From the IMG/VR virus record IMGVR_UViG_3300017963_000103, positions 1-44,603 of that record: a stretch of DNA of 44,603 bases; one strand, written 5' to 3'. This DNA comes from a virus. A model generated the notes under the pieces. That model was not told the DNA's origin and searched no databases. It saw only the letters and a program-made list of their open reading frames with translations. Below, in pieces: positions 28,278 to 36,416 of this stretch. Numbering within the stretch: the first letter of the stretch is position 1; each line of letters opens with the position of its first letter. The position numbers were made by a program, and so were the translations under genes.

Positions 28278-28289
28278 AAATTGTTTTTG

Positions 28290-28363
28290 CACCTGAGTGG
28301 GACTCGAACCCACGACCCAAGAGTTTTAATCTTGTTGCTCTTACCAACTGAGCTATACTGGCG
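28290..28363 (-). tRNA. tRNA-like gene, apparent anticodon AAA (Phe?)
   Basis: Minus strand: D-arm GCTC-AGTTGGTAA-GAGC, anticodon arm CAAGA-TTAAAAC-TCTTG, T-arm GTGGG-TTCGAGT-CCCAC, total 74 nt. Acceptor CGCCAGT pairs with TCAGGTG at only five of seven positions (A-A and T-T mismatches). There is one extra base before the D-stem and one before the anticodon stem. U33 is present and the loop reads anticodon AAA, a very rare Phe reading. No CCA is encoded. A degenerating tRNA or an unusual functional one. Confidence 0.55.
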
Positions 28364-28860: not shown

Positions 28861-29181
28861 TTATTTGTTTAGGTTTATCTTATAATGACATATAGTTACG
28901 GGCCTATCATCACCAACCCCTTTATGGCGAAAAACAGCTTCCTCAGTTTTATTGTGTATATACATAACCTCAAATTCATCACCACTGACAATTCCGACTA
29001 CAGTCTCACCAATTTTTATATTATCCCGAGTACAAACCACCCAATGCTCTTTAAATTTGTAGTAGTGATCAATACAACCTCTACCACACTTTTTAGCATC
29101 AAGAACGCACATATCACAACTATAAATATTTGGTGGGCCTTTACTTCCATCTGTTTCAAAAACTACCTTTTCAAGCTTCAT
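28861..29181 (-). CDS. Cys-rich hypothetical protein
   Basis: 106 aa from the ATG at 29181 (GGGAGAAAGGAAG site; the ATG overlaps the end of the RHH gene). Residues 15-35 carry CDMC and KKCGRGC, which could bind zinc; the rest is a beta-rich domain (KEHWVVCTRDNIKIGETVVG). Function unknown. Confidence 0.55.
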   Translation of the reverse strand: MKLEKVVFETDGSKGPPNIYSCDMCVLDAKKCGRGCIDHYYKFKEHWVVCTRDNIKIGETVVGIVSGDEFEVMYIHNKTEEAVFRHKGVGDDRPVTICHYKINLNK

Positions 29182-29356
29182 CTTCCTTTCTCCCTCTTCC
29201 CGGTAAACGTGTTTTATCAAGCTCTATTTTCTCTAAAGCCGAATGCACAATAAAATTTGACCTACTTGTTTTAGACTTCTTTTTTTTCTTATGTACGTGG
29301 TTGTCTATTTTTTGTAGGTCGTTTTTGTTTATTGTTATGTTTATTCTTGTTTTCAT
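29171..29356 (-). CDS. Ribbon-helix-helix regulator (CopG-like)
   Basis: 61 aa from the ATG at 29356 (AAAGG site). RINITINKNDLQKIDNHV (strand and first helix) and SRSNFIVHSALEKI (second helix) form a classic RHH core, with a very basic inter-helix segment (KKKKKSKTS). It lies immediately downstream of the inverted-repeat tRNA-like element, which could be its target. Probably a transcription or RNA/DNA-binding regulator. Confidence 0.6.
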   Translation of the reverse strand: MKTRINITINKNDLQKIDNHVHKKKKKSKTSRSNFIVHSALEKIELDKTRLPGRGRKEDEA

Positions 29357-29366
29357 ATACACCTTT

Positions 29367-29383
29367 AATCAGTGGGTTTTAAG
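29367..29383 (-). repeat. Left arm of 17-bp inverted repeat
   Basis: AATCAGTGGGTTTTAAG, exactly the reverse complement of 29717-29733. The next ten bases outward-in also match at 7 positions, giving a roughly 27-bp imperfect stem. It bounds, with its partner, the non-coding tRNA-like segment. Confidence 0.75.
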
Positions 29384-29403
29384 ATACGATAAGCCTGAAG
29401 ATT

Positions 29404-29461
29404 GGTTAATCGGATTTATCGTATTCGGTCGTCGGATGTTATAGCATTCGGTTAATCGGAT
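29404..29461 (-). repeat. 12-bp direct repeat inside the tRNA-like element
   Basis: GGTTAATCGGAT occurs at 29404-29415 and 29450-29461, with related CGGT/CGG motifs between. It lies at the downstream end of the non-coding element. Confidence 0.55.
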
Positions 29462-29650
29462 ATTAAATGTTCAATGTTATTGTATTTGGAGTTCCTTCAA
29501 GGTTTTTATGAGAACCAAGAACTCTACAATTCTTTTGCTCTACCAATTGAGCTACAGCTTCTCAGCCGGGCGGACTTGAACCACCAACATAAAGATCCAA
29601 TTTGTATTCGCTTAATAGGCGATTCCAGCTTACTGTCTGGTCAGTGCAAC
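29462..29650 (-). ncRNA. Tandem tRNA-like segments within a 333-bp non-coding gap
   Basis: The 29357-29740 stretch has no convincing gene. On the minus strand it holds a T-arm (GGTGG-TTCAAGT-CCGCC, 29569-29585) with upstream hairpins CCAG-8 nt-CTGG and TCGC-CTATTAA-GCGA (7-nt loop, U33 present). Directly after comes a canonical D-arm (GAGC/GCTC, 29537-29552) with a stem AAGAA-8 nt-TTCTT. Neither set makes a complete cloverleaf: acceptor stems are poor and the second lacks a T-arm. These are tRNA remnants or a composite tRNA-like RNA. Confidence 0.5.
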
Positions 29651-29716
29651 GATGAACCGGTATCATCTACCGTTTAAGGTACGGCGCGGACCTTTTCTCC
29701 ATCGCACCTATCGCAC

Positions 29717-29733
29717 CTTAAAACCCACTGATT
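29717..29733 (-). repeat. Right arm of 17-bp inverted repeat
   Basis: CTTAAAACCCACTGATT, partner of 29367-29383. Next to it, ATCGCACCT is repeated in tandem (29701-29709, 29710-29718). Confidence 0.75.
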
Positions 29734-29740
29734 TATTTTA

Positions 29741-30034
29741 TTATTTATAGTCAGACATTGCAGTATCACCAACATCAATTTCTGTCGTCCAGTTTGCTTG
29801 CTGTATTGCAGCATCAACCAACCTTAACTGCCTTGCATGCCAATCAAACTCAGATGTAACTTGTGATGCTGTTAATTTTGGAACTTGTGCAACAATATCG
29901 TCAAGACTTTCTGATATTTGTTTTCTTTGTGCTTTAATTTCGAATAGGTCTTTATCTTTGATATTTTTTAAAACCTGCACCTTATCCTGTAATTCTTTCC
30001 TTCTTAATAGTGCTTCTGCTAATTTAACTTTCAT
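29741..30034 (-). CDS. DIP1984-family (septicolysin-like) protein
   Basis: 97 aa from the ATG at 30034 (GGAGAGATAGG site). It starts KVKLAEALLRRKELQDKVQV and ends with QLRLVDAAIQQANWTTEID, both typical of DIP1984 proteins, although these are usually about 150 aa. A coiled-coil N-terminus is followed by a helical body. Function of the family is unclear. Driven by the promoter at 30063-30091; its ribosome site is the exact complement of part of the candidate small RNA at 33 kb. Confidence 0.6.
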   Translation of the reverse strand: MKVKLAEALLRRKELQDKVQVLKNIKDKDLFEIKAQRKQISESLDDIVAQVPKLTASQVTSEFDWHARQLRLVDAAIQQANWTTEIDVGDTAMSDYK

Positions 30035-30062
30035 CCTATCTCTCCTTTTTTTTAGTTTATTA

Positions 30063-30091
30063 ATCCTACACATTTACACATTTAAAGTCAA
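30063..30091 (-). promoter_or_regulatory. Early/middle promoter
   Basis: Minus strand: TTGACT (30091-30086), 17-base spacer, TAGGAT (30068-30063). It is placed just upstream of the DIP1984-like gene in a 50-base gap. Confidence 0.5.
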
Positions 30092-33788: not shown

Positions 33789-34140
33789 TTGTTATATCCT
33801 CCGTTAATATTCTGGTTTCTAAATCTAATAAGTGAACGGGCTTTTTAAGTACCATCCTGCAATATGCTATCTCTTTTTGAACACCTTTAGACTCTTTCCA
33901 CCCTTCCATTTTAATGACTAAAACATAATCAGCCCACCGGATAAACTCAAAATCAATTTTCTCCCAAAATTCAAACCCACCAGGCAAACCCTCCTGGATT
34001 GCTATCGGGTGGGAATGTGATACCGGTGCATAGACAATATTACCCATTTTATATTGCTCCGCTGCAATCTTGTTTGACAGGCGAAAAGACTCTTCTTTAT
34101 TGACGCTGGAATATGGGATTGCGATGTATATTTTATCCAT
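33781..34140 (-). CDS. DUF1937 protein (deoxyribosyltransferase-like fold)
   Basis: 119 aa. IYIAIPYSSVNKEESF (residues 4-19), YAPVSHSHPIA (about 37-47) and IRWADYVLVIKMEGWKESKG (about 67-86) match DUF1937, a family with a nucleoside 2-deoxyribosyltransferase-like fold. It may bind a nucleotide. Coupled to the methyltransferase by a one-base overlap. Confidence 0.7.
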   Translation of the reverse strand: MDKIYIAIPYSSVNKEESFRLSNKIAAEQYKMGNIVYAPVSHSHPIAIQEGLPGGFEFWEKIDFEFIRWADYVLVIKMEGWKESKGVQKEIAYCRMVLKKPVHLLDLETRILTEDITNE

Positions 34141-35048
34141 TAGAATAGCTCCAATTGTTTAGGTTTGTTTTCAATCTGTCTCATGTTTTTAATAGCGACA
34201 TCGTAATAATTTGTTTTAAGCTCAGTTGCTATTGATTTACGGCCCATTTCAACAGCTTTATAACCCTCTGAACCGATACCACCAAATGGAGAAAAAACTA
34301 TATCCCCTGGATTACTCCATAAAGTTATACATCTTTCGATAACATCGAGTTGTAATGGGCAAATATGCTTTTCATCTTTTTCATCTCTTGCTGGAAGTTT
34401 ATTTAATGTGTTCCCTTGCCGGATATCATTCCATACAGGTGAAGCGTACTTTCGCCAAATCTCATGCGATAAAACATCCCCTTCAGGAGTCACAGCGCCA
34501 GCATAGCAAGTTAATCCTGTTTCGTGTGTTATAAAGTTTTCGTTTACCCCTGGTTTTCTCATAGATACAACATAATCAGGCAATCCCTGACGGCACATAG
34601 ATGAATCTTTACATAGTTGCTTGTGCATCAAACCAAGCGCTTTTGTTCTTACTGCTTCTATTAATGGGTCTTTCCATATTGTAACCTCTGAATGAAATAT
34701 AAAACCCTCTTTTTGAAACATCCGGATAAGGTCACCTCTGAAATCTTTAATCCCGATAAACCCGTCTCTTTCCTTCATTGCTGGGATAAGCATACAATGA
34801 AACGAAACAATTCTGCCAGCCTTAATGGTACGGTATAATTCTTTAACAAGATAGCTGAATTGTGTATAAAACTCTTCATCAGATGCGCTGTTGCCCATGT
34901 CATTAATTGAGTCTGAATATGTATATAAAGATGCGAAAGGTGGCGAAAAAATAGAATAGTCAAGGCTGTTATCTTCAAAGTTACTAATTATTTCAACACA
35001 ATCACCATTATACAAGCTCCAGTTTTCTGAATGTTCCTGATTCAACAT
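34140..35048 (-). CDS. DNA methyltransferase, N4/N6 class
   Basis: 302 aa. Motif IV SPPF (residues 35-38, in YSIFSPPFASLY) precedes the SAM-binding motif I FSPFGGIGSEGYKA near 255-268, the beta-class order; an SPPF/Y motif favours N4-cytosine, though N6-adenine is possible. NGDCVEI near residue 14 is the usual N-terminal feature. It probably protects phage DNA from host restriction. It follows the SNF2-type helicase by 3 bases. Confidence 0.8.
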   Translation of the reverse strand: MLNQEHSENWSLYNGDCVEIISNFEDNSLDYSIFSPPFASLYTYSDSINDMGNSASDEEFYTQFSYLVKELYRTIKAGRIVSFHCMLIPAMKERDGFIGIKDFRGDLIRMFQKEGFIFHSEVTIWKDPLIEAVRTKALGLMHKQLCKDSSMCRQGLPDYVVSMRKPGVNENFITHETGLTCYAGAVTPEGDVLSHEIWRKYASPVWNDIRQGNTLNKLPARDEKDEKHICPLQLDVIERCITLWSNPGDIVFSPFGGIGSEGYKAVEMGRKSIATELKTNYYDVAIKNMRQIENKPKQLELF

Positions 35049-35051
35049 GAT

Positions 35052-36416
35052 TTAGTTCCTCATAAATTTAGGTATAATAAAAGTTTCTGTTTTAGTTTTA
35101 GATTTTCTTGATCCTGTTTTGATTTGGTTAACACTATTTAAACTGATATGTTTAACCATTCTTTCAAGCATTGCCTTTGCGTTTGCCTCTTTCCTCTTAA
35201 TGTTTTCAAGAACATTTCCCTCTTTTTCTGAAATAATAATATGAACATTTACCGGGTGTTTCTGACCAAACCTATAACAACGCCTTAGCGCCTGATAAAA
35301 TGATTCAAAAGAATCCGACAGGCCAACAAAACACATATTATGGCACGATTGCCAATTAAGGCCGAATTGTGCTATTTTTGGTTTGGTGGTAAGTTTTTCT
35401 ATTTCATTTTCTGAAAATGCCAGCATGTTTTTTTCTTTCTTTTCGTTTTTATCTGCACCTTTAACCTCAACACAATTATCGATTAATTCTGTTAGTAATG
35501 AACTTTCATCATTTAAATTGCACCAGTTTAAGAATTGCTCTGACGTTGAATTGTTAAGATCGGCTGCGAGCTTGCACCTGTCACCAATACTTTCCTTTCT
35601 TGCCTGTCTTCTTTCATTCAAAGTCTCTGCATATCTGACAAACAATTCACCATGTTCTGGCTCTGACTTTACAATATGTTCAAACATATTAAGAGGTGGT
35701 AATTTCATATGTGCATCGTCATAACCAATATCAGACGGTTTCTCAATCATAACAGCCCAATTAGAAACCCATTTAAAAAACTTGCTCTCTGCATGGCCTT
35801 TCAATCGCCACTTTTGAGTTGATCCTGAGTCATGAATAAAATATGTCGCCAACATTTCAACCCTGGAACATACATTTAAAAATTCAGCATGTGTTCCAAT
35901 TTCCGTAAAATCGTTTGGTGATGGAGTAGCAGAACAGCATAGCTTATATTTAGTGTTGTAAAAGCTTTCGACTATTTTTGTTTTAATAGCGCCTGAAAAA
36001 TTTTTCAATATACTCGATTCATCAAGGATGATTCCAGAGAAAACAGAACAATCAAACTTATGTAATTTTTCGTAGTTCGTTATATTTATACCACTAATAA
36101 TATCATTACTATCAGAACAAATATTAATATCTAAACCAATTAATAAGCCTTCTTTTTTTGTTTGTGCTGTAACGCCCAATGGTGCAAGTATCAAAATAGG
36201 TTTTTTAGTTTTTAAATAAACGTTTTGTGCAAATGTTAATTGCATTAATGTTTTACCAAGACCACATCCGGCCCAAATTGCAGCCTTACCTTTTTTGACA
36301 GCCCACACAACAAGATCATGCTGAAAGTCAAATAAAATATCAGGCATAAATACAGGTTTGAACCCGATATTTTTAATTGATCTTTCTTTAGTTTTTATAA
36401 ACTCTGAATACTTCAC
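35052..36416 (-). CDS. SNF2-type helicase
   Basis: 454 aa. Walker A GCGLGKT (residues 50-56), DESS box (132-135), SATPSPND (162-168), then a C-terminal lobe with TKPKIAQFGLNWQSC and LRRCYRFGQKHPVNVH (motif VI R-x-x-R-x-GQ). The family, often paired with a methylase, is common in phages. No methylase domain is present here; the next gene supplies it. Possible roles are remodelling of replication or restriction complexes. Confidence 0.8.
   Translation of the reverse strand: MKYSEFIKTKERSIKNIGFKPVFMPDILFDFQHDLVVWAVKKGKAAIWAGCGLGKTLMQLTFAQNVYLKTKKPILILAPLGVTAQTKKEGLLIGLDINICSDSNDIISGINITNYEKLHKFDCSVFSGIILDESSILKNFSGAIKTKIVESFYNTKYKLCCSATPSPNDFTEIGTHAEFLNVCSRVEMLATYFIHDSGSTQKWRLKGHAESKFFKWVSNWAVMIEKPSDIGYDDAHMKLPPLNMFEHIVKSEPEHGELFVRYAETLNERRQARKESIGDRCKLAADLNNSTSEQFLNWCNLNDESSLLTELIDNCVEVKGADKNEKKEKNMLAFSENEIEKLTTKPKIAQFGLNWQSCHNMCFVGLSDSFESFYQALRRCYRFGQKHPVNVHIIISEKEGNVLENIKRKEANAKAMLERMVKHISLNSVNQIKTGSRKSKTKTETFIIPKFMRN

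Follow-up and report, generated by a model that had tools for sequence, protein, structure and literature searches.

The element and its features

The stretch analyzed here, below called the window, is the 44,603-nucleotide (nt) viral DNA of IMG/VR record IMGVR_UViG_3300017963_000103. Positions 29367-29733 hold an element of about 370 nt that lies directly downstream of a DUF6847/DIP1984-like gene and whose minus strand, running in the same direction as the neighboring genes, is predicted to form a structured RNA with transfer RNA (tRNA)-like parts. By comparison with relatives, this element can be assigned with high confidence to a conserved family of structured RNAs carrying a tRNA-mimic module. 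The evidence on structure is comparative throughout, and the loci compared are mostly IMG/VR fragments. The following features were located.

29741-30034, minus strand: DUF6847/DIP1984-like gene, 97 amino acids from an internal ATG (open reading frame 29741-30073), directly upstream of the RNA
29367-29733, minus strand: whole RNA element, a DUF6847-associated tRNA-mimic RNA (folding z -5.1; kept in relatives)
29706-29733, minus strand: closing stem P1, 5′ arm, pairing with 29367-29394
29669-29694, minus strand: H-type pseudoknot with S1 AAGGU/ACCUU and S2 GCCGU/ACGGU (S2 covariation and covariance model match)
29651-29667, minus strand: hairpin P3 GAUGA/UCAUC, then conserved CGUUGC (pairing versus shuffles)
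29625-29640, minus strand: hairpin CCAG/CUGG (sequence and minimum free energy fold)
29608-29622, minus strand: anticodon-arm-like hairpin UCGC-CUAUUAA-GCGA, separate from the permuted module
29591-29595, minus strand: permuted anticodon stem, 39-43 strand UCUUU, pairing with 29531-29535
29586-29590, minus strand: variable region of 5 nt
29569-29585, minus strand: T-arm GGUGG-UUCAAGU-CCGCC
29555-29568, minus strand: acceptor-stem stub CGGCU-GAGA-AGCUG, 5 base pairs (bp) capped by a GNRA tetraloop, without CCA end
29537-29552, minus strand: D-arm GCUC-AAUUGGUA-GAGC
29531-29535, minus strand: permuted anticodon stem, 27-31 strand AAAGA, pairing with 29591-29595
29489-29524, minus strand: hairpin GAGUUC...GAACUC (minimum free energy fold only)
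29403-29495, minus strand: CCGA repeat array with five CCGA (29456-29459, 29448-29451, 29432-29435, 29425-29428, 29410-29413), ending in UCCGAUUAACCA
29367-29394, minus strand: closing stem P1, 3′ arm, pairing with 29706-29733

An earlier note on this DNA, made from the letters alone, had proposed a composite tRNA-mimic RNA in a gene-free cassette bounded by a perfect 17-bp inverted repeat. The repeat spans 25 nt at 92% complementarity (29367-29391/29709-29733) including the 17-nt perfect core, can be extended with G-U pairs to 28 bp (29367-29394/29706-29733), and ranks best among seven such pairs in the window. Two open reading frames of at least 60 amino acids reach between its arms (29130-29444 and 29474-29677, both plus strand), and both are oriented opposite to the structured strand and to the genes on either side. 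The folding energy of the minus strand reached z = -5.1 relative to shuffled sequences, none of 100 shuffles being equal to it; the plus strand likewise folds well (z = -4.5). The repeated short sequences described earlier were also recovered, GGTTAATCGGAT and ATCGCACCT each occurring twice on the minus strand.

A conserved scaffold downstream of DUF6847 genes

Of about 70 viral loci inspected, about 50 have a common scaffold, located 45-60 nt past the stop codon of the DUF6847/DIP1984-like gene. Its parts are, in order: closing stem, H-type pseudoknot (AAGGY...RCCUUAA), hairpin, CGUUGC, tRNA-like region, CCGA array leading to UCCGAYUAACCA, and the other arm of the stem. Pseudoknot stem S2 covaries across 31 sequences (87% paired versus 51% after shuffling, 0 of 500 shuffles as high), and the pairing is weaker when the partner is slid; hairpin P3 is paired in 96% versus 56%. 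S1 is paired in 88% versus 83%, which gives it little independent covariation support, and its segments were first picked by eye; therefore we base the argument on S2 and P3. At least seven Watson-Crick pairs close the stem at 33 of 39 loci, with a mean length of 12.5 compared to 6.0 for mismatched partners, and the final 130 nt of these 39 loci contain 163 copies of CCGA, compared with 16.6 expected.

A covariance model of the pseudoknot and P3 (R1) was built from 22 relatives, leaving out the window. It detects the window copy at 29646-29694 (minus strand; 36.9 bits, E 3.9e-7) as the sole significant match in the window, scores most DUF6847 loci with one copy per record, and gives no match in those Y RNA phages on which it was run. 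It overlooks some divergent members whose membership is evident on visual inspection (L146, L172 and the Vibrio phages). The window element carries the R1 motif, the closing stem, the CCGA array and the upstream DUF6847 gene together, as is characteristic for this RNA. The reading as a composite tRNA-mimic RNA closed by a long stem is well supported: stem, pseudoknot and tRNA-like parts are kept in relatives and covary. The permuted order of the tRNA parts, the pseudoknot, the CCGA array and the conserved upstream gene had not been part of that earlier description.

The scaffold has no match in Rfam 15, and the family is apparently new. At gathering score, neither GOLLD nor ROOL was matched anywhere in the window; there was also no match to them in 29300-29800 at E up to 10, or in 10 relatives scanned at E up to 1. 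It is nevertheless conceivable that the scaffold is, like these RNAs, a functional RNA-only or ribonucleoprotein (RNP) assembly whose tRNA-like module serves as cargo, linker or handle for binding ribosomes or tRNAs. This would agree with the stronger conservation of the scaffold relative to the module, without which it can also occur. We consider it unlikely in view of the missing Rfam match, the clearly smaller size of the element, and its conserved protein-gene neighbor, as no protein partner is known for ROOL (PMC12286853).

A permuted tRNA-like module

The canonical T-arm (29569-29585), D-arm (29537-29552) and hairpin with 7-nt loop (29608-29622) reported earlier were all found on the minus strand. 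The order there is T-arm, a 14-nt hairpin CGGCU-GAGA-AGCUG and D-arm, i.e., that of a circularly permuted tRNA whose acceptor end is closed by a tetraloop. The anticodon stem is formed by AAAGA 3′ of the D-arm and UCUUU 5′ of the T-arm, and opens into the rest of the RNA. Because of the permuted order, the second anticodon-like stem previously assigned next to the D-arm is better taken as one half of this anticodon stem. A strict scan for the layout of permuted T-arm, acceptor hairpin, D-arm and anticodon stem gave one match in the window and none in 40 shuffled windows.

Neither ARAGORN nor Rfam called a tRNA at the element. In place of a 7-bp acceptor stem with discriminator and CCA site, the 5-bp stub closed by GAGA was found. 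We infer that the module is not a working tRNA, since it has no acceptor end and, if permuted, no anticodon loop of its own, making a role in translation as a tRNA unlikely. Maturation of a permuted gene to a working tRNA, by circularization, by a permuted group I intron or in the two-piece manner of transfer-messenger RNA (tmRNA), would account for the 3′ half preceding the 5′ half, an order shared by permuted tRNA genes and two-piece tmRNA genes, and for a weak tmRNA match at locus L123. With the tetraloop-closed 5-bp stub, no 7-bp acceptor stem and no CCA, we regard it as extremely improbable. A permuted group I intron yielding a circular tRNA was set aside as a candidate: the group I core (P3-P8, P7; Rfam Intron_gpI) had no match in the unrotated sequence, no P7 or other core motif was visible by eye, and locus L017 lacks a U.G P1.

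Elsewhere in the window, ARAGORN called a tRNA-Phe with the unusual anticodon AAA (28289-28363, minus strand). By eye, its acceptor halves GCCAGTA/TCAGGTG barely pair, so that it is perhaps another tRNA mimic or a decayed tRNA.

Relatives and distribution of the permuted layout

Pattern scans for a T-arm closely followed by a D-arm returned 27 and then 88 viral stretches, of which 48 sequences with the permuted layout remained after removal of ordinary tandem tRNAs and doubtful cases. Acceptor stubs are 99% paired versus 54% after shuffling (42 loci), the commonest stub length being exactly 14 nt, and permuted anticodon stems are 78% paired versus 45% (48 loci). Three of the TROVE-negative loci (L029/L068, L074/L084 and L046) resemble the window further, having the same conserved motif upstream and, also upstream, a gene of the DUF6847/DIP1984 family.

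The nearest Rfam family is YrlA (RF02553), which suggests a YrlA-type Y RNA bound by a Ro60/Rsr protein. The module matches it with 36.3 bits (E 2e-6 in a 501-nt search), the YrlA-type parts (T-arm, closed acceptor stub, D-arm, central stem) are all present, and the permuted T/D-arm geometry is that of TROVE-carrying phages. The gathering threshold of 69 is not reached, however, and the match is explained by the tRNA-mimic part, as L017 attains the same score (36.7 bits) from model positions 23-87 alone. In the Ro60-binding stem with its conserved Y sequences, part of the letters align (CGAAU-C), with weak pairing. When records were retrieved with the permuted motif alone, 15 of 27 and 14 of 43 had TROVE (PF05731) above its cut-off, which is what phage Y RNAs would predict. 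By contrast, TROVE was found neither in the window record nor in any of the 31 records that have DUF6847 together with related RNAs, including the complete phage PS32B.1. The RNA is therefore not a Y RNA system, unless a host-encoded Ro60 is used. With its different scaffold in addition, YrlA was rejected as a family assignment, and we hold this explanation to be very unlikely.

Y-RNA-like loci (L008, L011, L016, L045, L069, L081, L083), mostly in TROVE-carrying phages, have anticodon-like hairpins which by eye, as in the DUF6847-associated RNAs, belong mostly to codons starting with A (Ser GCU, Arg CCU/UCU, Asn GUU). TROVE-negative phages, some of 174-371 kb, carry permuted tRNA-like RNAs with the common layout outer stem, nn, ACAGCAA, then the 39-43 strand (L041, L052, L055, L059, L075, L005); they may form a second class that lacks Ro60 or has a divergent version of it. 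In L017 (3221-3334, minus strand), directly downstream of a phrog_1491 'tail fiber' gene, the permuted module follows a pair of D-arm-like and anticodon-arm-like parts (Rfam tRNA 28.4 bits).

Among 140 genomes of its family, only Legionella maceachernii itself has a copy, so that a phage or prophage element and not a core gene is indicated. The DUF6847-RNA unit was observed in L. maceachernii and in a Desulfosporosinus metagenome-assembled genome (L177, L178), probably in prophages, which suggests a wide host range of such phages. The cultured Vibrio phages 1.264.O and PS32B.1 have a DUF6847 gene and, after it, a similar RNA region that lacks annotation and was recognized by eye alone. Searches for relatives through protein P0003 gave none, and through DnaB distant phages only. 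Scanning with CCTTAAAC..TAGATG..TTGCA returned known relatives and unrelated matches, and the CCGA/TAACCA motif known loci together with an unrelated repeat (L183-L190).

An exchangeable module

Sorted by the content of the site, 75 DUF6847 loci comprise 26 with a tRNA called by ARAGORN, nine with the permuted module, 13 with the T-arm motif only and 27 with neither. The ordinary-order modules are poor tRNAs, with a mean of 5.0 of 7 acceptor pairs and a CCA after the discriminator in 1 of 21. On the protein tree, which has few columns and is to be read with care, the permuted state requires seven changes, at least five of them forced by well-supported branches. The permuted form thus seems to have arisen repeatedly; we know of no precedent for a single scaffold on which the tRNA arrangement has switched repeatedly between the ordinary and the permuted one.

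Decay of a tRNA array or a tRNA pseudogene, one of the readings offered in the earlier note, is hardly compatible with this repeated origin. The note had linked it to intact ordinary tRNAs at this site in relatives. Ordinary-order tRNA-like modules do occur there, as decay would predict, but they are mimics themselves: their acceptor ends are defective, and they sit in the same scaffold. The permuted form, for its part, keeps all its helices intact and compensated in several lineages within a conserved scaffold, and we see almost no chance that decay explains the element.

An anticodon-like hairpin with 7-nt loop is present in 39 of 50 scaffolds (7.0 expected), and in 9 of the 16 without a recognized T-arm or tRNA. 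Thus tRNA mimicry, above all of the anticodon arm, appears to be under selection while gene order is free. The 'anticodons' of these hairpins are mostly NNU (GCU, GAU, GUU, UUU, UAU), with UUG in addition.

The DUF6847 gene and neighboring genes

The DUF6847 protein of the window matches Pfam PF20935 at 33-35 bits (cut-off 27), as do all 35 of its aligned homologs, and a protein search with it yielded 69 viral loci. The nearest solved structure is 3kdq, an uncharacterized protein, with a weak match (E 0.006). No mention of DUF6847 was found in the literature searched, to which most subscription papers and preprints did not belong, so that an earlier description of the RNA is possible; DIP1984 was named once, in a survey on an unrelated subject. 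The RNA is probably made together with the upstream DUF6847 gene, whose product is the obvious candidate for a protein partner.

The window also encodes a terminase, a portal, a major head protein, a DnaB-like helicase and a single-stranded DNA-binding protein (SSB). Just past the 3′ arm of the RNA starts a small ribbon-helix-helix-like gene (29171-29362, minus strand) with a weak, below-cut-off match to HicB-like antitoxins. The regulator noted earlier beside the cassette thus does adjoin it downstream, but was not seen as a conserved partner. Adjacent open reading frames at 34140-36416 (minus strand) correspond to separate portions of one large phage helicase family (phrog_16). Methyltransferase-like matches were also obtained for one of them, and together they perhaps represent a split gene.

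This arrangement bears on a cis-acting or replication-linked role, in which the element would be either a replication RNA or a structured 3′-untranslated region (UTR) that regulates DUF6847 or the genes following it, and the tRNA-like fold a signal for stability or for processing by RNase P or a modification enzyme. The element is indeed directly 3′ of DUF6847, no terminator-like site was found in the region, and replication genes (DnaB-like helicase, SSB) surround it. However, the next gene downstream varies between the relatives looked at, and a UTR would not usually have this size, a pseudoknot or anticodon types that can be exchanged, which makes such a role quite improbable.

Proposed role

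The D/T elbow and the anticodon hairpin are features read by tRNA-modifying enzymes and anticodon nucleases. Anti-phage immunity frequently targets tRNAs, and the known answers of phages are mainly extra tRNAs and repair enzymes. The sequence comparisons show a scaffold of closing stem, pseudoknot, hairpin with CGUUGC and CCGA array that carries an exchangeable tRNA-like module. We propose that this module would act as a tRNA mimic, offering its D/T elbow together with an anticodon hairpin, in most cases of a type for codons starting with A, to a tRNA-recognizing protein. The CCGA array may join with DUF6847 in an RNP. As the RNA frame recurs in dozens of phages, sometimes with an ordinary-order look-alike, it is probably a tRNA mimic used against the host tRNA machinery or to borrow it; action by engaging a tRNA-recognizing factor is, in our estimate, somewhat favored. 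The likeliest target would be a tRNA-cleaving or tRNA-sensing defense enzyme of the host, in which case the RNA would be a decoy. Since the anticodon types change, a decoy against tRNA-directed immunity would fit best, and we put this role forward tentatively. The full picture of an undescribed phage RNP, in which DUF6847 and a pseudoknotted scaffold display interchangeable tRNA mimics that switch topology and blind host tRNA immunity with an anticodon arm matching the local threat, is speculative and rather doubtful.

Several observations weigh against these proposals. In view of the 27 of 75 DUF6847 loci without recognizable tRNA or T-arm, the scaffold may serve a function independent of the module. 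A bias toward codons starting with A is at odds with several anticodon types (UUG), and a pure decoy model leaves the CCGA array unexplained. To our knowledge no function has been assigned to DUF6847, and its AlphaFold model (predicted local distance difference test 60) is too poor for a fold search.

If true, a phage RNA displaying tRNA mimics would be another answer to tRNA-directed immunity. The repeated switch of order would show that the tRNA fold and not the gene order is selected, and tRNA calls in such phages may be mimics. The partner gene and the cultured Vibrio phages PS32B.1 and 1.264.O make the system testable.

Comparison with known systems

With the circularly permuted tRNA genes of algae and archaea, the element shares a tRNA 3′ half encoded before the 5′ half. 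Those genes mature to working tRNAs, whereas the element has neither acceptor end nor anticodon loop, and its anticodon stem opens into the scaffold. tmRNA, including its two-piece permuted form, is similar in that a D/T tRNA-like part is joined at the anticodon-stem position to a larger pseudoknotted RNA; in contrast, the element lacks an acceptor end, no tag reading frame was called, and neither ARAGORN nor Rfam found a tmRNA in the window.

GOLLD and ROOL occur in phages, have no known function, and either contain tRNAs or lie close to them (PMC12286853; PMC6582537). Like them, the element is a structured non-coding RNA of phages in which a tRNA part may be embedded; it differs by the absence of a covariance model match, its size of about 370 nt, a tRNA part that can be permuted, and the upstream DUF6847 gene.

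YrlA shares the permuted tRNA-mimic module of T-arm, short closed acceptor stub and D-arm, and its occurrence in phages; for its tRNA-like domain, competitive inhibition of an anticodon nuclease has been suggested by others (PMC7790460). Unlike YrlA, the element occurs without Ro60/TROVE, is linked to DUF6847, and combines a pseudoknot, a CCGA array and a long closing stem with a module that elsewhere is missing or of ordinary order.
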